49,748 bases of DNA from Alphaproteobacteria bacterium (GTDB lineage Bacteria > Pseudomonadota > Alphaproteobacteria > Micropepsales > Micropepsaceae): the NCBI GenBank assembly GCA_019242275.1, contig JAFAVT010000021.1:1-49748 (forward strand), in the 5' to 3' direction. Position numbers and translations under genes: made by a program. Under the pieces are notes generated by a model that saw nothing but the letters and a program-made list of their open reading frames with translations, made no database searches and had not been told where the DNA came from. This document shows positions 256 through 15,266 of the stretch, one piece after another; within the stretch, counting starts at the first letter, position 1; each line of letters begins with the position of its first letter.

Positions 256-1860
256 CTAGCCGACAGAAGCCAGCAGCGGGCTGTCTCGTCCTGGAATGGC
301 TGCGAGAAGCGTTTTTATGTAAGCGTCCTTGGGCGCGTTGAAGATATCCCTTGTGGCGCCGATCTCTACCACGCGACCATGACGCATCACCATCAGGCGA
401 TGGGAAATTGCCGCCGCCACCCGCAAATCGTGGGTAATGAACAACATGGCCAGATTCATCTGCCGGCGCACATCGTCCAGCAGCTTCAGCACCTGGGCCT
501 GTACGGTAACGTCGAGTGAGGAAACCGGCTCGTCAGCGATCAGCACATCAGGCCGCAGCATCAAGGCGCGTGCCAGCCCAATGCGCTGACGCTGCCCGCC
601 GGAAAATTCATGGGGAAAGCGATCCAGCGCCTCCTTGCCCAAACCAACCAGCGCCAGCAACTCACAGGCGCGCTCACGGGCCGCAGCAGGCGCCTCACCA
701 TAGGCGCAAGCCCCCGCCGCGAGGATATCGCCGATGCGGCGCCGCGGATTGAGCGAGGCATAAGGATCCTGAAACACCATCTGGATGTGCCGGCGCGACG
801 GCCGCAGCGCGCCCGCTTTCATATGCGCGATATCGCTGCCGTCAAAGCGGATAGCGCCGCGGTCGGGCTCGAGCAGCCGGATGATGCAGCGCGCCAGGGT
901 GGATTTACCGGAACCGGATTCCCCGACAATGCCCAGCGTCTCGCCGCGGTTGAGCGTCAGGCAAACCTGATCCAGGGCCCTTACCGCCTGGCCTTTGCGA
1001 AAGAGCGCCCCGCGACGAAACGATTTGGATAGAGCGTCAACCTCCATCACCGGCTTCATGCCCGCCTGGTCCAAAGGCGCGCACCTGCCCTTCGGGATGG
1101 CACCGATCAGCGCCCGGGTATAGGGATGGGCCGGCGCCGAGAGAAGTTTTTCGGCACTGCCTTTTTCCACCACCTGACCCTGGCGCATCACCACCACGCG
1201 GTCGGCAAGCTCCGCCACCAATCCAAAGTCATGGGTGATGAAAAGCACGCCCATCTGCCGCTTCGCCTGCAGCCGCTTGATCAGCCGGACGATCTGAGCC
1301 TGGGTGGTGACGTCCAGCGCCGTGGTCGGCTCGTCCGCGATCAACAATTTTGGCGACAGCGACAGGGCCATGGCGATCATCACCCGTTGCCGCTGGCCGC
1401 CGGAGAGTTGATGCGGATAGGCCTTGATGACGCCCGAAGCGTTGTTAAGGCCCATTTCCTCCAAAAGTTCGCCGGCCTGCCGCAGCGCCTCAGCTTCGGA
1501 AATCCGGCGATGGGCTCTGATCTGCTCGCTCACCTGCTCGCCCACCCGCATCACCGGATTGAGCGCCGCCATCGGATCCTGAAAGACCATGGCGATGTCG
1601 CGGCCGCGGCGGCGCCGCGTGGCTTCCGCCGGCTCGCGCAACAGGTCGCTGCCCTCGAACAGGATGGCGCCCTTGGTCGCCGCCACCCCCCGCGGCAAAA
1701 GTCCCATTACCGCATGGGCGGTGAGAGACTTGCCGGAACCGGACTCGCCCACCAGGCAAACAATCTCATTGCTGCCGACATCGAAGCTGACGTCCTCGGC
1801 CGCCAGTGTGCGCTCTGCGCCGGCGGGCAAGGCCACGGCAAGATCGCGAATGGCCAGCAT
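256..1860 (-). CDS. Dipeptide/oligopeptide ABC transporter, fused double ATP-binding subunit (DppD-DppF/YejF-like)
   Basis: Two Walker A (GESGSGKS), two [13 protein letters not shown] signatures and two Walker B motifs in one 534-aa ORF; overlaps next permease stop/start. Confidence 0.93.
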
Positions 1861-2687
1861 CAGCGCCGCCGCCGCGCCGCCAGGGCGTCGTTAAGCCCGT
1901 CACCAACAAAATTCAGCGCCAGCACGGTAACCAGGATGCAGAGGCCGGGCAGCACCATGGTCCACCAGGCCACCCACATTGCCGAGCGCGAGCCGCCGAT
2001 CATGCGCCCCCAGCTCATCAGGTTGGGATCGCCCAGCCCCAGAAAACTCAACGCCGATTCCGTCAGGATGGCATTGCCGATCATCATCGAAGCCACCACC
2101 ACGATCGGCAGCATGGCGTTGGGCAAGATCTCGCCAAAGATGATGCGGCCATCGCTCAAGCCTTGGGTGCGCGCCGCCTCAACAAATTCCCGCCGTCGCA
2201 GCGCCAAGAACTCGCCGCGGGCGATGCGCGCCACCTGCGGCCAGGTGATCAGGGCGATGCCGATCACACTGGAAACAAGACTGGGCTGCAGGAACGCCAC
2301 CAACACCATCAGCAGCACAAAAGCAGGAACGACCTGGAAGAATTCGGTGAAGCGCATCAAAAGATCGTCCACCACGCCGCCATAATAGCCGGCCACGGCG
2401 CCCAGCAGCACGCCAGCCCCCAGGGCCACGCAGGTCGAGGAAAGGCCGATCAAGAGGGAGACGCGCGCGCCATAAGCCAGGCAGGCCAGCAGATTGCGCC
2501 CCAACACATCGCTGCCGGCCGGTAGCCCTGCGCTTCCCGGCGCCAGCAGCGGCATGCCGACAATGGTGAAGGGCCCGCGGGGAAACAGCAGGGGCGCTGC
2601 CATGGCCGTCAAAACGATGACCGCAAGCACGCCCAGTCCGATCAGCGTCTGGGGCCGGGCCAGAAAGCGGCAGAGAAAATCCTTCAT
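1860..2687 (-). CDS. Peptide ABC transporter permease (DppC-like)
   Basis: Hydrophobic permease with BPD_transp_1-type EAA region; position between ATPase and second permease. Confidence 0.9.
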   Translation of the reverse strand: MKDFLCRFLARPQTLIGLGVLAVIVLTAMAAPLLFPRGPFTIVGMPLLAPGSAGLPAGSDVLGRNLLACLAYGARVSLLIGLSSTCVALGAGVLLGAVAGYYGGVVDDLLMRFTEFFQVVPAFVLLMVLVAFLQPSLVSSVIGIALITWPQVARIARGEFLALRRREFVEAARTQGLSDGRIIFGEILPNAMLPIVVVASMMIGNAILTESALSFLGLGDPNLMSWGRMIGGSRSAMWVAWWTMVLPGLCILVTVLALNFVGDGLNDALAARRRR

Positions 2688-3661
2688 GCCCCCAGCTCCA
2701 TGCGGGGATCGGCGAGCGTATAGGCGATGTCGGTGAGAAGATTGAAGAACCCGACCAGCACTGAGGTCACAATGAAAATCCCCAGCAGCAGCGGATTGTC
2801 GCGCGCCGTCACCGCTTCATAGGCCAGGGTCCCAATGCCCGGCCAACTGAAGACATTTTCCACCAGCACCGTGCCGCCGACCAGGATCGAAGCCTGAAGA
2901 CCGGCATAGGTAATTATGGGAATCAGCGCATTGCGCCGGATATGGCGGCGCATCACCTGCCGCTCGCTCAGGCCCTTGGCACGGGCGGTCTTCACGAAAT
3001 CCTGCTCGGCGATTTCAATCATCTGGGCCCGGGTCAGCCGCGCATAGCCCGCCATATAATAAAGTGCCAGCGTCATGCCGGGCAGAAGCATGTGCTGCGC
3101 AATGTCGGCTGCCCGCAACAGGCCTTTATGATCGGCGCCGATGGATTCAAGCCCGAAAGGCGGCAGCCAGTTGAGCCAGACCGAAAAGACCAGCACCGCC
3201 ATCATTCCCAGCCAAAATTGCGGCACGGCATAAAACAGCATGGCCAAAGTTGTGACGCCGGCATCCCCGGCTGAGCCGGGCCGGCGGGCTGCAAAGGCGC
3301 CCAGGGTGAGGCCGCCCGCCAGCGCCACAACCAAAGCAAAACCATCCAGCAGCAAGGTATTGGGCAACCGGTCCAGAACGACGTCCAGCACCGGCTGGCG
3401 CCGTTCATAGGAAAGACCCAGATCGCCACGCGCCACGGCCGCGCCATACTTCCACAACTGCACCGGCAATGGCCGGTCGAGGCCATATTCCAACCGCAGG
3501 CTTTTGATAAAGGTTTCATCGGCATAACCTGATTGGCCGGCCATGACCGTGGCGGCATCGCCGGGCGCCAGCCGGATCAGAAAGAAACTCAGCAGCACCA
3601 CCGCCACGGTCAGCATCAGGGTGCGGACCAGCCGGCCGGCAATATAAGTGAGCTTGCTCAC
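2684..3661 (-). CDS. Peptide ABC transporter permease (DppB-like)
   Basis: DppB-like N-terminus (LVRTLMLTVAVVLLSFFLIRLAPGD) and EAA loop (DFVKTARAKGLSERQVMRRH); 4-bp overlap with neighbour. Confidence 0.92.
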   Translation of the reverse strand: MSKLTYIAGRLVRTLMLTVAVVLLSFFLIRLAPGDAATVMAGQSGYADETFIKSLRLEYGLDRPLPVQLWKYGAAVARGDLGLSYERRQPVLDVVLDRLPNTLLLDGFALVVALAGGLTLGAFAARRPGSAGDAGVTTLAMLFYAVPQFWLGMMAVLVFSVWLNWLPPFGLESIGADHKGLLRAADIAQHMLLPGMTLALYYMAGYARLTRAQMIEIAEQDFVKTARAKGLSERQVMRRHIRRNALIPIITYAGLQASILVGGTVLVENVFSWPGIGTLAYEAVTARDNPLLLGIFIVTSVLVGFFNLLTDIAYTLADPRMELGA

Positions 3662-5238
3662 GCAGCGCCGCTCAGCCAGGTGTGGCCGAAGCCGTCGGTC
3701 GGACCGTTAGGCCCAGTGACCAGGTCATGCACCCGCCTGTTGTAATAGAGCATGGGATCGCGCTCGAAGAGCCACAGCATGGCAACATCGCGGGTGAGAA
3801 TCTGCTGCAGCCGGCTGTAAATCTCCTGTGCTTCGCGCGGCGCGATGGCGGTCGCGGCCCGCGCGAACAGCGCGTCCACTTCCCTATTGCGATAACCCTG
3901 GATGTTGGACTGGGGCACACCCTTGCGGATGTTGGATGAGACAAAGAAGCGCGCGGTGCCGATGGCCGGGTCGCCATATTCGCCATAGGAATTGTTGTCC
4001 ATGTCGAAATCCCAATTGCCGGTGCGGTGGGCAAAGCTGGCCCAGTCGGAGGATTGCAGCTCGATGTCCAGGCCCACTTCCGAAGCGGCCTGGCGGACAT
4101 ATTGGGCGCCGCGGGTCTGGATGCCATCGCCGTCCGGAATCATCAGAAAGCTGAAACGGTGCCGCACGCCGCCGGCTCCCGGCTTCAGACCCATTTCATC
4201 CAGCAGCGCCCGGGCCCGGTTGGGGTCATAAGGATAGCGGCTCACTGCCTGCCCATCATAATAGGGCGCCGCCGAGGGGATCGGTCCACTTGCCACCTTG
4301 CCTTGGCCGAAATTGATCGCCTTGACGATAAAGTCGCGGTCCAGCGCATGCATGAAGGCTTGCCGGAATCGCCGGTCGCTGAACGGCCAGCGCCGCTGAT
4401 TCATCTCCAGCACCGCGATTTCGCCCACGCCTTCATAGCCGTGGGTGGAGGCGACAATATGAGGGTTGGCCCGCAAGCGGCTGCTGACCACCGTGTCAAT
4501 GTCATCGGCCAGGGCGATATCCACCGCACCGGTTTCCATTGCCACCATGCGCTGCTCGGGCGTGGGACAGATGCGAAAATAAATGTCGTCAATTTTGGGA
4601 AAGCCAGGCCGCCAATAGTCCGGGTTGCGGGTGAGGCGGATATATTGTCCCCGCTCCCAGCGGGCGAATTTGAACGGGCCGGTGCCTATGGGGCTGAAAT
4701 TGTGCGGATTGCTGCGGTAATCGCTGCCCTCATAGATATGCGCCGGCATGATCGGCGCATTCGACGCCATCAGCGACAGCAGAAAAGCGTTGAAAGGCTG
4801 CTTCAACCGAAATTCCACCGTCAGCTTGTCGAGTGCCCGGATGCTTTGACAGTTGTTAAAGGCGTTGCGGCTGCGCGGATTGAGTTGGCGCAGCATCTGG
4901 TCGCAACTGAACACCACGTCACGGGCCGTAAATGGGTGACCGTCATGCCAGCGGACATCAGGTTGAAGCTGAAAGACATAGGCCAGCCCGTCCGGCGTGA
5001 TGGTGTAGCTGCGCGCCAGGTTGGGTTGCGGCTTGAAATTCCAGTCCAGCAGCAGCAGGGATTCCTGGATGTTGCCGCAAATCTGCTGCACCAGCCTTGT
5101 GTTGAGCAGGGGATAGCACAAGGTCCCCGGCTCGGCCGGCATCATGGCGTTGAGGATGTTGCCGCGCGCCATGGCCGGCAGCGACAGGAACGGCGCGCCC
5201 GCCATCGCCCCCAGCATGGCGCGGCGGTGTGGCTTCAC
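3658..5238 (-). CDS. Peptide ABC transporter substrate-binding protein (SBP family 5)
   Basis: SBP_bac_5-like sequence (PDVRWHDGHPFTARDVVFS); likely GTG start at 5238 overlapping the upstream stop; N-terminus MKPHRRAMLGAMAGAPFLSLPAMARG resembles a signal peptide. Confidence 0.9.
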   Translation of the reverse strand: MKPHRRAMLGAMAGAPFLSLPAMARGNILNAMMPAEPGTLCYPLLNTRLVQQICGNIQESLLLLDWNFKPQPNLARSYTITPDGLAYVFQLQPDVRWHDGHPFTARDVVFSCDQMLRQLNPRSRNAFNNCQSIRALDKLTVEFRLKQPFNAFLLSLMASNAPIMPAHIYEGSDYRSNPHNFSPIGTGPFKFARWERGQYIRLTRNPDYWRPGFPKIDDIYFRICPTPEQRMVAMETGAVDIALADDIDTVVSSRLRANPHIVASTHGYEGVGEIAVLEMNQRRWPFSDRRFRQAFMHALDRDFIVKAINFGQGKVASGPIPSAAPYYDGQAVSRYPYDPNRARALLDEMGLKPGAGGVRHRFSFLMIPDGDGIQTRGAQYVRQAASEVGLDIELQSSDWASFAHRTGNWDFDMDNNSYGEYGDPAIGTARFFVSSNIRKGVPQSNIQGYRNREVDALFARAATAIAPREAQEIYSRLQQILTRDVAMLWLFERDPMLYYNRRVHDLVTGPNGPTDGFGHTWLSGAA

Positions 5239-6734
5239 GCGGTCGCGTCCCTGGTCAGCCGGTCCAACGGAAAGACCGGCCGCCGCAACTTGGTATAGGG
5301 CAACCGTGTCACATCGGACATGCAGGGGCCGGCAGTGGAGACGGTGTGACTGGCCGAGGCGATGGGATCCCAGGCGGCACGATGACCGACCGCTGCCTTG
5401 ATCCCCACCATGGAAAGCTCTTCCGGATTGATGCCCTGGCTGCGCCACTGGCCAAGATCGAAAGGCGGCAGTTTGCGGCTGGTGAGAAGGATGGTGAGGC
5501 CACGGTGTTTCACCACCGCGGTCGGCCCCATGTTGATGATCTTGCCCAACGAACCCACCAGATGGGAATTCTTGTCTTCCAGTTCGAAGACACCATCGCT
5601 GCGCGATACCAGCGTCACCTCCAGCGTCACCGGACCCGGATCGAGCGGACTGCCCTTGCCGCCGATGGGCAGGGTCATGCTCTGGCCGATGGTGATGCGT
5701 TGCAGCGCCGCCACCGCTTCCGGATCGGCAATCGCCACGCCGGCACCGTCAATGTCGTATTTCAGCAAAGCCCGCATGACTTCGGTGCCGTCACCTGGCG
5801 CGCCGCCGCCGATATTGTCGGCCGGCTCCACCAGCAGAACCGGACCTTTGCCGCCCGGTTTGAAATCTCGGACCACCGTTTCAAGATTTTCTTCCGCCGG
5901 CGCCCCTTCCGCGCGCATGTCCCAGGCGATCTGCGCCAACTCGCGCAGTGCGGCATGGGCGTCAGCCTCGCTGCCTTCGCTGATGACACTGAAGGAAAGG
6001 CCGGCATTGGGCACATCAGAAAAGGCATAGCCACCCACGATGTTGACCGCCAGCATACCGGGCACCTCTTTCTCCAGCCGCCGCGCCGCGTCCTCCAGCG
6101 CGCGCATCGGCCCGTCACGGGTGCCGGTGCCGGTGGGCGGCCAGACAATCGGCGTCACCATCACCAGATGCCTGGGCTTGATGCCGGTCCTGAGGCGCCG
6201 CGCCAGCAGGGCGGCCGCGCGCACGGCGCTGGCGAACTGATCGGTGTGCGGGCATTCCTGGTAGAAGATCATGCCGTCGCTGAGTGCGCCCATGCGCGGA
6301 GTCAAAGTGGCGTGGAGGTCACCGACGGCATAGAGCGGCAGCGCCTCCGCCCCCGGCGTGGCGCGAATGCGCGCCATCAATTCGCCTTCGGGATCGTCGC
6401 AAGCGTCGGTGACCATGGCGCCGTGCAGCGACAGATGAATGCCGTCCAGCCCGCCGGCCAAAGCCTGTTGCAGCATCGGCTTCAGTTCGCGCCAGAATTG
6501 CTCGAACACGGCGTGATCCACCGTGCCCGAGGCGCCGCCGGTATAGATCACACCGGGCAGCACTTCCCAGCCTTCGCGCTCGGCAACGCTGAGAAAGCCG
6601 TCAACCTGCGAGGCATCGCCGCGGCGGGCGGTGATCTGATCGCCGCGATGGATGACAAAGCCGTCCAGCCCGGTGCGGTCGCCGGAAAAAGAATGGGTCT
6701 CGTGAAAAATGCCGGCGATGAAAATCCTGGTCAT
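5235..6734 (-). CDS. M81 family metallopeptidase (MlrC/microcystinase C-like)
   Basis: MTRIFIAGIFHETHSF N-terminus, SLHGAMVTD, DLHATLTPRM, M81-type C-terminus; ATG at 6734. Confidence 0.92.
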   Translation of the reverse strand: MTRIFIAGIFHETHSFSGDRTGLDGFVIHRGDQITARRGDASQVDGFLSVAEREGWEVLPGVIYTGGASGTVDHAVFEQFWRELKPMLQQALAGGLDGIHLSLHGAMVTDACDDPEGELMARIRATPGAEALPLYAVGDLHATLTPRMGALSDGMIFYQECPHTDQFASAVRAAALLARRLRTGIKPRHLVMVTPIVWPPTGTGTRDGPMRALEDAARRLEKEVPGMLAVNIVGGYAFSDVPNAGLSFSVISEGSEADAHAALRELAQIAWDMRAEGAPAEENLETVVRDFKPGGKGPVLLVEPADNIGGGAPGDGTEVMRALLKYDIDGAGVAIADPEAVAALQRITIGQSMTLPIGGKGSPLDPGPVTLEVTLVSRSDGVFELEDKNSHLVGSLGKIINMGPTAVVKHRGLTILLTSRKLPPFDLGQWRSQGINPEELSMVGIKAAVGHRAAWDPIASASHTVSTAGPCMSDVTRLPYTKLRRPVFPLDRLTRDATA

Positions 6735-6832
6735 GCGCGCCCCTGTTGCCGAACTTTCCGTGCTTTTTCGAGGGCTGGCAAGCGGGGGCATTTGCGCTTG
6801 GAGCAGGTTCCGTTGCTCGGAATCTCTCCTAC

Positions 6833-6924
6833 TCACCATGGGCGGGCTTGACCCGCCCATCCAGAGCAACAAATAGCGGCACTTGCGACTCCTGGATGGC
6901 CGGCTCGGGGCCGGCCATGGTGAG
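6833..6924. repeat. R4-family palindromic repeat (CTCACCATGGGCGGGCTTGACCCGCCC...GGCCGGCCATGGTGAG)
   Basis: Two hairpins (GGGCGGG-CCCGCCC; GGCCGGC-GCCGGCC) inside outer inverted arms CTCACCATGG/CCATGGTGAG; related copies at 29593 and 49543. Confidence 0.85.
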
Positions 6925-10098: not shown

Positions 10099-11013
10099 AT
10101 GAACAAAGGCACGATCAAGTTTTTCAGCGCGCACAAGGGTTTTGGGTTCATCACGGCTGACGAAGGTGGAAAAGACATTTTTTTGCCCGCAACGGCGCTG
10201 GGCGAAGTCAAACCCCAGCACTTGATCGCGGGCCAGCGCGTTGAGTTCAACGCGGTGCCGGATGCGAAAGGGCCAAAAGTTTCCGAGATTCGGCTGCTTG
10301 GCAAACCGGCACCCGCACCCATCGCCGCGGCGCCGGCGATAATTGTCTATTGCGATCCCTCTTCTGAAACCGCGGAAGACGTTTTGCTGGCGATACGCCA
10401 GGCCGGCATGTCGCTGCAGGTGGTGGATTATCTGACGGCGCCGCTGTCGCCCGATCTGCTGCGGCGGCTGTCGCTGTCGCTCGGCGAAGCCGACCAGAGC
10501 CTGGTGCGCCGCTTCGATCCGCTTTTTGTGGCTTTGCAGTTGGATGACCGTTTTATCGGCGATCAGGATTTTTGGACCGGCATCATCCAGCATCCGGCCC
10601 TGATCAACGGACCGATTCTGGTTTCATCAGGCAAGGCGCGCATCTGCAAATCGGCCAGGGAGGTAAAGGCCTTCCTCAGCGGTGACATTAAAGAAGAGCC
10701 GAAAAAAGCAAAAACGCTCACGCCCCGGCTGATGGCCCTGATGCGCGGCGAACAGGTTGCGCCGGCAAAGAGTTCAGGGAAGGCAGAAAAAACTGGCGAG
10801 AAAGCTCAGCTTGAGCCGGACATCGCGGCGAAGCGATCAGTCTCTCCCAAGACAAAGCCTGCCCAAAAAATCCCTGCTGCCGAGGCGACGGTGAAAAAGA
10901 AAGCGACCGCGAGCAAGGAAGCCAAAACCGCCAAAGGCGCACCGGTTAAATCTAAAGCATCTCCCAAGGCGAAGTCTGCGGCCGGGATCAAAGGTCGGCA
11001 GAAGGGCCGCTAG
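10099..11013 (+). CDS. Cold-shock-domain protein with ArsC/Spx-like thioredoxin-fold domain and Lys/Ala-rich C-terminal tail
   Basis: CSD: MNKGTIKFFSAHKGFGFITADEGGKDIFLPATAL; ArsC-like: IIVYCDPSSETAEDVLLAIRQAGMSLQVVDYLTAPL...QHPALINGPILVSSGKARICKSAREVKAFL; tail rich in KKA/AKS/KGA. Confidence 0.85.
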   Translation: MNKGTIKFFSAHKGFGFITADEGGKDIFLPATALGEVKPQHLIAGQRVEFNAVPDAKGPKVSEIRLLGKPAPAPIAAAPAIIVYCDPSSETAEDVLLAIRQAGMSLQVVDYLTAPLSPDLLRRLSLSLGEADQSLVRRFDPLFVALQLDDRFIGDQDFWTGIIQHPALINGPILVSSGKARICKSAREVKAFLSGDIKEEPKKAKTLTPRLMALMRGEQVAPAKSSGKAEKTGEKAQLEPDIAAKRSVSPKTKPAQKIPAAEATVKKKATASKEAKTAKGAPVKSKASPKAKSAAGIKGRQKGR

Positions 11014-11024
11014 CGGGACGGCAA

Positions 11025-11190
11025 CCTGGAGCGCGCCCCGCGCGGCACCAGCCGCGCTATAAAATATGGCCTCGCCCGCCTGGAACATCTTTCAAATAAA
11101 GCAGAGACTTGGAGCGGGCCCCCGCGCGGCACAGCCGCGCCATAAAATATGGCCTCGCCCGCCTGGGACATCTTTCAAATAAAGCAGAAA
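11025..11190. repeat. Two tandem 83-bp units adjoining the tRNA-Gly 3' end
   Basis: CYTGGAGCG occurs at 11025, 11108 and 11191 (exact 83-bp period); units share CGCGCGGCACcAGCCGCGC hairpin, ATAAAATATGGCCTCGCCCGCCTGG and ACATCTTTCAAATAAAGCAGA. Confidence 0.9.
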
Positions 11191-11192
11191 CC

Positions 11193-11267
11193 TGGAGCGG
11201 GCGAGGCGAATCGAACGCCCGACCCTAACCTTGGCAAGGTTATGCTCTACCCCTGAGCTACGCCCGC
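11193..11267 (-). tRNA. tRNA-Gly (GCC)
   Basis: Minus strand GCGGGCGTAGCTCAGGGGTAGAGCATAACCTTGCCAAGGTTAGGGTCGGGCGTTCGATTCGCCTCGCCCGCTCCA; acceptor GCGGGCG/CGCCCGC, GCC anticodon, encoded CCA. Confidence 0.97.
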
Positions 11268-14172: not shown

Positions 14173-14364
14173 TCAGTCCCTGAGGAACACCTCTTCGATC
14201 CTTGCGGCAAAGGCATCGGCGATGCGGAAGGCCAGCGGCAGCGAGGGCTCGAACTTGTCATTCTCGATGGCGTTGATCGAGTTGCGCGAGACCCCGACCT
14301 TCTCGGCAAGTTCGGCCTGGCTCCAGTTCTTTTCGGCGCGCAGCACGCGGATGCGGTTTTTCAT
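14173..14364 (-). CDS. Small Xre-family HTH transcriptional regulator
   Basis: MKNRIRVLRAEKNWSQAELAEKVGVSRNSINAIENDKFEPSLPLAFRIADAF; ATG at 14364. Confidence 0.9.
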   Translation of the reverse strand: MKNRIRVLRAEKNWSQAELAEKVGVSRNSINAIENDKFEPSLPLAFRIADAFAARIEEVFLRD

Positions 14365-14380
14365 GTCGCGCTCCACCTCC

Positions 14381-14806
14381 TCACCGCCGTGCCCGCCACC
14401 ACAAGAGATGGGCCACCACCGTGCCGATGGCCTGGAGCAGGACGACACCAACCGCCCCGATGGTCATGCCCAGCAAGACCTTGCCGCGCGGCTGATTCAC
14501 CAGCTCGCCCACCAGATTCTGAAATGGCGGCAGCGCCAGCAAAACAAAGAAAGCGATCTGCCCGGCGGTGACGCCCCACTTCGCCGCGTAATCGGCGCCG
14601 GCGCGCTGCACTTCGTCCAGCCGGCGCTGCATTGAGAGCGCGACATACCAGGCATAGAACATCACAAAGGCCGACACCGCCGCGGCAACCCAGGTGGTCA
14701 CGGTGCCGCCAACCGCGCTCTTCAGCCAGGGCGCGACGCTGAGGAAAACCACCGGCACGATTGCCAGCGGTGCCCCCAGCAGGATTTGTCGCTGTTTGGA
14801 TGTCAT
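14381..14806 (-). CDS. Small four-TM-like membrane protein, paralogue of 14844-15266
   Basis: VPVVFLSVAPWLKSAVGG...RRLDEVQRAGADYAAKWG...WWRARR; upstream AGGAGG. Confidence 0.8.
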   Translation of the reverse strand: MTSKQRQILLGAPLAIVPVVFLSVAPWLKSAVGGTVTTWVAAAVSAFVMFYAWYVALSMQRRLDEVQRAGADYAAKWGVTAGQIAFFVLLALPPFQNLVGELVNQPRGKVLLGMTIGAVGVVLLQAIGTVVAHLLWWRARR

Positions 14807-14843: not shown

Positions 14844-15266
14844 TCATCGTCTTGCCCGCCACCACATCAGCTTGGCGACGAACATGCCGATCGTCTGCAA
14901 GATGACGACGCCGCCAAAACCGAACATCACCGCCAGGATGATAATTCTGCGGCTGGCGCCGGAATCGTCCGCCGCGTCCCGCAGCAAGGCGGCAGCGAAA
15001 TCCCAGAAGGGCGGCAACATCGAAAGCATCGCGAAAGCCACGGCGCCGATGCCCATGCCCCATCGCGCCGCGAACTGGCCGCCGGCCAGTTGCACTTCGT
15101 CCAGGCAGTGCTGCGCACGGAAAGACAGATAAAGAGAATAGGCCATGACCGACATCGCCAACCCTGCGGCGATGAGACTGGTCATCCCCCCGCCGATTGC
15201 CGTCTTGAGCCAAGGCGCCACCGTGAGAAAGAGGGCCGGAACAATCATCAGCGGCAGGACGATCAA
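14844..15266 (-). CDS. Small membrane protein paralogue; only a TTG start in the long frame, upstream ATG (15296) hits TAA at codon 8
   Basis: VPALFLTVAPWLKTAIGG...HCLDEVQLAGGQFAARWG...WWRARR aligns along its length with 14381-14806. Confidence 0.65.
   Translation of the reverse strand: MIVLPLMIVPALFLTVAPWLKTAIGGGMTSLIAAGLAMSVMAYSLYLSFRAQHCLDEVQLAGGQFAARWGMGIGAVAFAMLSMLPPFWDFAAALLRDAADDSGASRRIIILAVMFGFGGVVILQTIGMFVAKLMWWRARR

Follow-up and report, generated by a model that had tools for sequence, protein, structure and literature searches.

A conserved fusion of a cold-shock domain, a degenerate ArsC fold and a basic tail in an alphaproteobacterial genus

What does a protein do in which a cold-shock domain (CSD) is joined to the fold of an arsenate reductase (ArsC) that has lost its catalytic residues? 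The question is raised by a single gene in a 49,748-nucleotide stretch of alphaproteobacterial DNA, referred to here as the window. An earlier note, made from the DNA letters and their translations, described a three-part protein and proposed that its non-enzymatic ArsC part could serve as an adaptor to nucleic acids or RNA polymerase. The combination of a CSD, a dead ArsC fold and a basic tail is real and conserved. The sections below describe its parts, its distribution and its surroundings, and weigh the functions that it may have.

Overall architecture of the protein

The gene starts with ATG, ends with TAG, and encodes a protein that can be divided, from the N- to the C-terminus, into a cold-shock domain, an ArsC fold, a helical motif and a basic disordered tail (Table 1). 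In a model calculated by AlphaFold2 from 11 orthologs, two domains are predicted confidently, most of their residues having pLDDT values of approximately 90, and the tail is disordered. Foldseek searches with the model identified ArsC and cold-shock protein structures with a probability of 1.00. The three-part architecture of the earlier note is thus borne out by profile matches, structure prediction and structure comparison. The note knew of no described family with this architecture, and, in agreement with this, a text search of the open-access literature for CSD together with ArsC or arsenate reductase found no paper. The parts are known, whereas their combination and the residue signature appear to be new.

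Table 1. Features of the fusion gene and its surroundings; positions are those of the window, residues those of the encoded protein, and residues of ArsC follow E. coli numbering.
Feature	Position	Strand	Evidence
Whole gene, CSD-pseudoArsC-basic tail protein, 304 aa + stop	10099..11013	+	ORF, orthologs
Cold-shock domain, residues 1-66	10099..10296	+	PF00313, E=1.8e-13; Foldseek to CspA/CspE
RNP1 KGFGFIT, residues 13-19, kept	10135..10155	+	
RNP2 DIFLPATA, residues 26-33, with Pro30 (10186-10188) instead of His	10174..10197	+	
ArsC-like thioredoxin-fold domain, residues 80-195	10336..10683	+	Profile, structure search, AlphaFold2, Foldseek
Ser89, aligned with catalytic Cys12 of ArsC	10363..10365	+	Residue alignment
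Gly171, aligned with Arg94 of ArsC; next residue is the conserved Pro (Pro95)	10609..10611	+	Residue alignment
Linear motif KAKTLTPRLMALMRG, residues 203-217, predicted helix 209-215	10705..10749	+	Ortholog alignment, model
Lys/Ala/Pro-rich disordered basic tail, residues 223-304	10765..11010	+	pLDDT <50 from 224; composition
tRNA-Gly gene	11193-11267	-	

Cold-shock domain

Residues 3-65 match the PF00313 profile with a score of 50.6 bits (gathering cut-off 27), and the domain was found in all 11 sequences of alignment A1, from which the family profile was built. Foldseek aligned the CSD part of the model to CspA (PDB: 1mjc) with a TM-score of 0.85. The domain shares with CspA/CspE-type cold-shock proteins the OB fold, the RNP1 segment KGFGFI, the length and a match from start to end, whereas CspA and CspE stand alone and have neither the ArsC fold nor the basic tail attached. 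A C-terminally extended cold-shock protein, CspB of M. tuberculosis (PDB: 9xw3), is similar in that a CSD is followed by another region, and it was matched by both profile and fold; however, the match covers essentially the CSD part only, and there is no fusion to ArsC.

RNP1 of the window protein retains Phe15, Phe17 and Lys13, and the RNP1 aromatics together with the basic residues Lys7, Lys13 and Lys60 are present in all 22 fusions or nearly so. The description of the domain as canonical CspA-type in the earlier note holds for the profile match and RNP1, but not for RNP2, in which the histidine is replaced by proline in 21 of the 22 fusions and by threonine in the remaining one. The histidine is present in all 39 stand-alone CSDs sampled from loci of the genus. 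At the adjacent aromatic position (Phe30 of B. subtilis CspB), neither the fusions nor the stand-alone CSDs have an aromatic residue, and therefore the histidine change is the only fusion-specific one in RNP2. RNP2 of TmCsp contacts the ligand through the equivalent histidine and the adjacent residue only (PMC7704496). The replacement would fit a protein in which the CSD has given up nucleic-acid binding and acts as a protein-protein module in its own right, the whole serving as a general scaffold. The retention of the RNP1 aromatics and of the three lysines, and the basic pI of the CSD in most family members, argue against such a scaffold, which we consider unlikely.

ArsC-like domain

Residues 82-192 align with positions 2-113 of the 114 in the arsenate reductase profile TIGR00014 (E=1.3e-13); the score of 51.5 bits misses the equivalog cut-off of 106.05 bits, and the gathering cut-off of PF03960 is passed marginally (24.6 against 24 bits). 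When residues 79-217 were compared with solved structures, the top matches were arsenate reductases (PDB: 3rdw_A, E=8.6e-14; PDB: 2mu0, E=3.2e-13), and Foldseek aligned the ArsC part to 3rdw with a TM-score of 0.82 by target length. A single-sequence AlphaFold prediction of this part had a low mean pLDDT of 55, with the order of strands and helices broadly unchanged. The end-to-end alignment to ArsC and the thioredoxin fold that the earlier note had recognised by eye are therefore supported by the near full-length TIGR00014 match and the 3rdw match, and the AlphaFold2 model and Foldseek give a confident ArsC (thioredoxin-like) fold. With glutaredoxin-type ArsC (TIGR00014, PF03960; for example PDB: 3rdw and 1i9d), the domain shares full-length homology, the thioredoxin-like fold, Pro95 and basic residues at the places of Arg60 and Arg107.

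In contrast to ArsC, the catalytic residues are missing. The replacements of Cys12 by Ser, Arg16 by Glu and Arg94 by Gly had been read correctly from the sequence, and they can now be followed through the family. Cys12 is lost in 22 of 23 orthologs and kept in all 33 stand-alone ArsC proteins of the genus. Arg94 is lost in all 23 (Gly in 22, Ser in 1), whereas 32 of the 33 stand-alone proteins have it. His8 is kept in two orthologs and Asn9 in none. The places of Arg60 and Arg107 are occupied by Arg or Lys and by Arg, Lys or His, respectively, in 23/23, and Pro95 is invariant. In the window protein, these two positions are Arg137 and Lys184, so that the Arg60-Arg94-Arg107 triad is incomplete at Gly171. 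A survey of PF03960 found Arg94 in 93% and Cys12 in 53-54% of sequences (PMC5593903), and therefore it is the loss of Arg94 that sets the fusion clade apart from most described ArsC relatives. With active-site residues lost family-wide, arsenate reduction by the fusion protein would not be expected, as the earlier note had proposed for the single sequence.

Two orthologs deviate from the common pattern. G014 (locus L010) is the only one with a cysteine at the Cys12 place, and its Arg94, His8 and Arg16 are missing. G435 (locus L164) has kept HDPxxxxSR around the lost Cys12, which is replaced by Tyr, and possibly represents an early stage of active-site decay. Residues D86, Q133, S134, R151, F152, W159, G171 and F192 are nearly invariant and specific to the fusion. 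Aromatic residues have been gained at positions 139, 152, 158, 159 and 192, at which they are absent or rare in ordinary ArsC.

The domain might retain chemistry related to thiols or oxyanions, either by binding glutathione or by sensing redox state through Cys183 and the frequent Cys85. The basic Arg60 and Arg107 places and Pro95, a cysteine at the Cys106 place in 22 of 23 orthologs, Cys85 in 11 of 23, and the Cys12 of G014 are consistent with this. There is also a precedent, since the ArsC-like protein YffB binds glutathione without most of the Arg triad (PMC3169414). However, Cys12, His8, Asn9 and Arg94 are nearly all gone from the family, Cys85 is variable, and Cys183 corresponds to a cysteine that is likewise kept in stand-alone ArsC. 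YffB itself differs in that it keeps the cysteine, within a GX3CX3K-type motif, and its structures are weaker fold matches (PDB: 1rw1, 2kok). The YffB traits Lys93 and Asn60, which constitute coevolved set 4 (PMC5593903), do not occur in the family, in which position 60 is Arg or Lys, position 93 is mostly Asn, and the Cys12 place is not Cys. Residual chemistry of this kind is improbable.

Spx has the same fold and provides the precedent of an ArsC fold serving transcription rather than arsenate reduction (PMC2801614). By analogy, the ArsC fold of the fusion would bind the C-terminal domain of the RNA polymerase alpha subunit (alpha-CTD), and the CSD, which Spx does not have, would provide contact to nucleic acid. 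Foldseek matches of the fusion include Spx structures, also Spx-alpha-CTD, and there are weak sequence matches to Spx. The similarity is nevertheless far weaker than that to ordinary ArsC, with E-values of about 7e-4 and 8.6e-14 in the structure search, and the score with the NCBIfam Spx model is 16 bits, where 123 would be the cut-off. The CxxC motif of Spx is absent, its two cysteines corresponding to Ser and Ala in the window protein. Among the 23 sequences, the place of Spx Gly52 is mostly Ser or Ala (Gly in 2), that of Arg60 mostly Tyr or Phe, that of Lys62 mostly Pro and that of Arg92 mostly Gly. Gly52 is needed for the interaction of Spx with alpha-CTD, and roles of Arg60, Lys62 and Arg92 are likewise described (PMC2801614). 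Membership in the Spx family was rejected residue by residue on these grounds, and the Spx-type route is very improbable because the residues for alpha-CTD interaction and activation are replaced. The analogy drawn in the earlier note, binding of RNA polymerase in the manner of Spx, is not supported in detail.

Linear motif and basic tail

The ArsC domain is followed by a motif with the family consensus K-P-K-x-L-S-x-R-L-L-x-L-M-x-G, in which Lys205 is present in 23/23 and Gly217 in 22/23 sequences. The helix motif within it, K-x-L-S-x-R-L-L-x-L-M-x-G (residues 205-217), was absent from the earlier reading.

The tail of the window protein contains 23 Lys and Arg residues against 6 Asp and Glu in 82 residues. 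Across the family, tails are 66-107 residues long and have 18-33 Lys and Arg against 1-10 Asp and Glu, and the last 80 residues of each of the 22 sequences have a pI between 10.4 and 12.0. The tail is histone-H1-like, as the earlier note had called it, in being Lys/Ala/Pro-rich, disordered and strongly basic; the likeness is one of composition, not homology. Such Lys/Ala/Pro tails occur commonly in high-GC proteobacteria. If the tail did the work and the folded domains merely tuned it, the protein would be a nucleoid-associated or RNA-compacting one. The uniformly high pI, the excess of basic residues and the predicted disorder are compatible with such a role. However, constraint is weakest in the tail, which varies in length and has dN/dS values of up to 0.87, and the CSD, the ArsC domain and the helix motif are all more constrained, which makes a tail-driven function rather unlikely.

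Distribution and origin of the fusion

Full-length or nearly full-length fusions were identified with the A1 profile in 23 of 69 species of the genus, including G011, the ortholog of which was counted although its 5' end is lost at a contig edge. In G016, the contig stops after 42 CSD residues that carry the RNP2 of the family (FLPAA), and this genome is probably a 24th carrier. No fusion was found in six other genera of the order, represented by 27 genomes, nor in samples of 385 and 398 genomes of the class and phylum, which are sparse enough for rare cases to be possible. A contig profile search with the ArsC domain alone gave no match. Three candidates from outside the genus were rejected: those of Rhizobium CF122 (L081) and Martelella (L152) are ordinary CSD genes extended by chance, and that of G182 (L060) is an ordinary ArsC within a long reading frame.

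In FastTree trees, the 23 ArsC domains of the fusions form one clade with a support of 1.0 and a long stem, and the CSDs of the fusions form one clade with a support of 0.98. In the recA tree, all 20 carriers with a usable recA fall into one clade of 25 (support 0.89); the other five members are G016, G030, G447, G444 and G433, of which G444 and G433 are incomplete. The three trees together indicate a single origin and mostly vertical inheritance with a few losses.

The nearest stand-alone ArsC proteins are those of G018, G007, G003, G023, G026, G031 and G004 (group support 0.97, with long-branch effects possible). Three of these genomes (G023, G026 and G031) have a stand-alone csp gene no more than 1.3 kb upstream of arsC and in the same orientation, and in G004 such a gene follows 0.45 kb downstream, also on the same strand. 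In all, csp and an ordinary arsC are separated by no more than about 2.5 kb in 25 or more genomes of the genus, a minimum and not an unbiased rate, since the loci were partly picked for that neighbourhood. The proximity of the two genes therefore offers a plausible route for the birth of the fusion. L041, L042, L043 and L049 are among the genus loci with arsC near csp, and L041 and L043 have small ORFs of 64-147 aa between or beside the two genes.

A separate arsC match is present in 20 of the 23 carriers (that of G017 is partial, at a contig end), and none was seen in G006, G036 and G428; the fusion is therefore no replacement for the enzyme. Pairwise dN/dS ratios (NG86, nine close pairs) range from 0.00 to 0.15 in the CSD and from 0.05 to 0.21 in the ArsC domain; the corresponding ranges of the motif and the tail are 0.00-0.45 and 0.12-0.87. 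Judged by these ratios, both the CSD and the ArsC domain are under purifying selection, and the dead ArsC domain is thus still maintained.

Genomic context

The fusion gene is solitary amid ordinary transport and metabolic genes. Upstream of it is a gene for a LipP1-like esterase; downstream are a duplicated 3' flank of tRNA-Gly, the tRNA-Gly gene, and genes of a polyamine-type ABC transporter. The flank (11023-11202) is a tandem duplication of an 83-bp unit (2.2 copies, 90% match), and each copy contains a GC-rich inverted stretch adjoining an AT-rich run. Comparison of the window neighbours with 22 ortholog loci identified no constant gene partner, and a partner in an operon or system was rejected because these loci share loose remnants at most: MlrC and a binding-protein gene in L038, and oligopeptide-transporter-like genes in L036 and L170. 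Genes of MlrC-like and oligopeptide ABC transporter type, or their relatives, are located a few kilobases from the fusion in L038 (11244-14345), L036 (3907-7261), L170 (3821-4561) and the window (256-6872), and are perhaps the remnant of an ancestral neighbourhood.

The sequence TCAGGA is common to 13 of the 22 upstream regions, in many of them directly 5' of the ATG, and therefore supports the start codon in those members; it is missing in the window copy. No sigma-70-like promoter site was found. Rfam identified tRNA only, plus one sub-threshold snoRNA match taken as chance. A mobile or defence origin was rejected, as no plasmid record covers 80% of the query, and PHROGs and PADLOC match the CSD only. 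Elsewhere in the window, a small helix-turn-helix protein of 92 aa (14173-14451, minus strand) has a Y4mF-type antitoxin match (TIGR03070) under the cut-off, and two similar small membrane-protein-like ORFs (14381-14806 and 14844-15266) adjoin its gene.

Discussion

We favour, with a probability of about one half, the reading that the protein is a clade-specific, non-catalytic fusion acting as a nucleic-acid-associated adaptor. The CSD, in which RNP1 is preserved but RNP2 changed, and the basic disordered tail (pI about 10-12) would hold RNA or single-stranded DNA. The ArsC fold, having lost Cys12 and Arg94 and gained five aromatics, would be a module for protein interaction or self-association, and the helix that follows it may constitute a second docking element. 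Against the adaptor function count the replacement of the RNP2 histidine by proline, which could weaken or alter nucleic-acid binding, the missing conserved gene partner, and the fact that tail composition alone shows no function. Of the adaptor proposed in the earlier note, the non-enzymatic, nucleic-acid-tied part is plausible, but an RNA polymerase adaptor of Spx type is not favoured, as the key residues are replaced.

It is possible, though we hold it tentatively, that the protein represents the first case in which an RNA-binding domain has captured a dead arsenate reductase fold, and with it a new class of nucleic-acid-tethered ArsC pseudoenzyme adaptors. Such a class would have been born once in the genus from neighbouring csp and arsC genes, and its partner would be neither the RNA polymerase alpha-CTD nor a redox enzyme.

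Pseudoenzymes turned adaptors are well known, and non-catalytic roles of ArsC folds are known chiefly for Spx and related proteins of Gram-positive bacteria. The CSD-pseudoArsC protein of this alphaproteobacterial clade would be a second, separate case of a non-catalytic ArsC fold, with a different residue signature.
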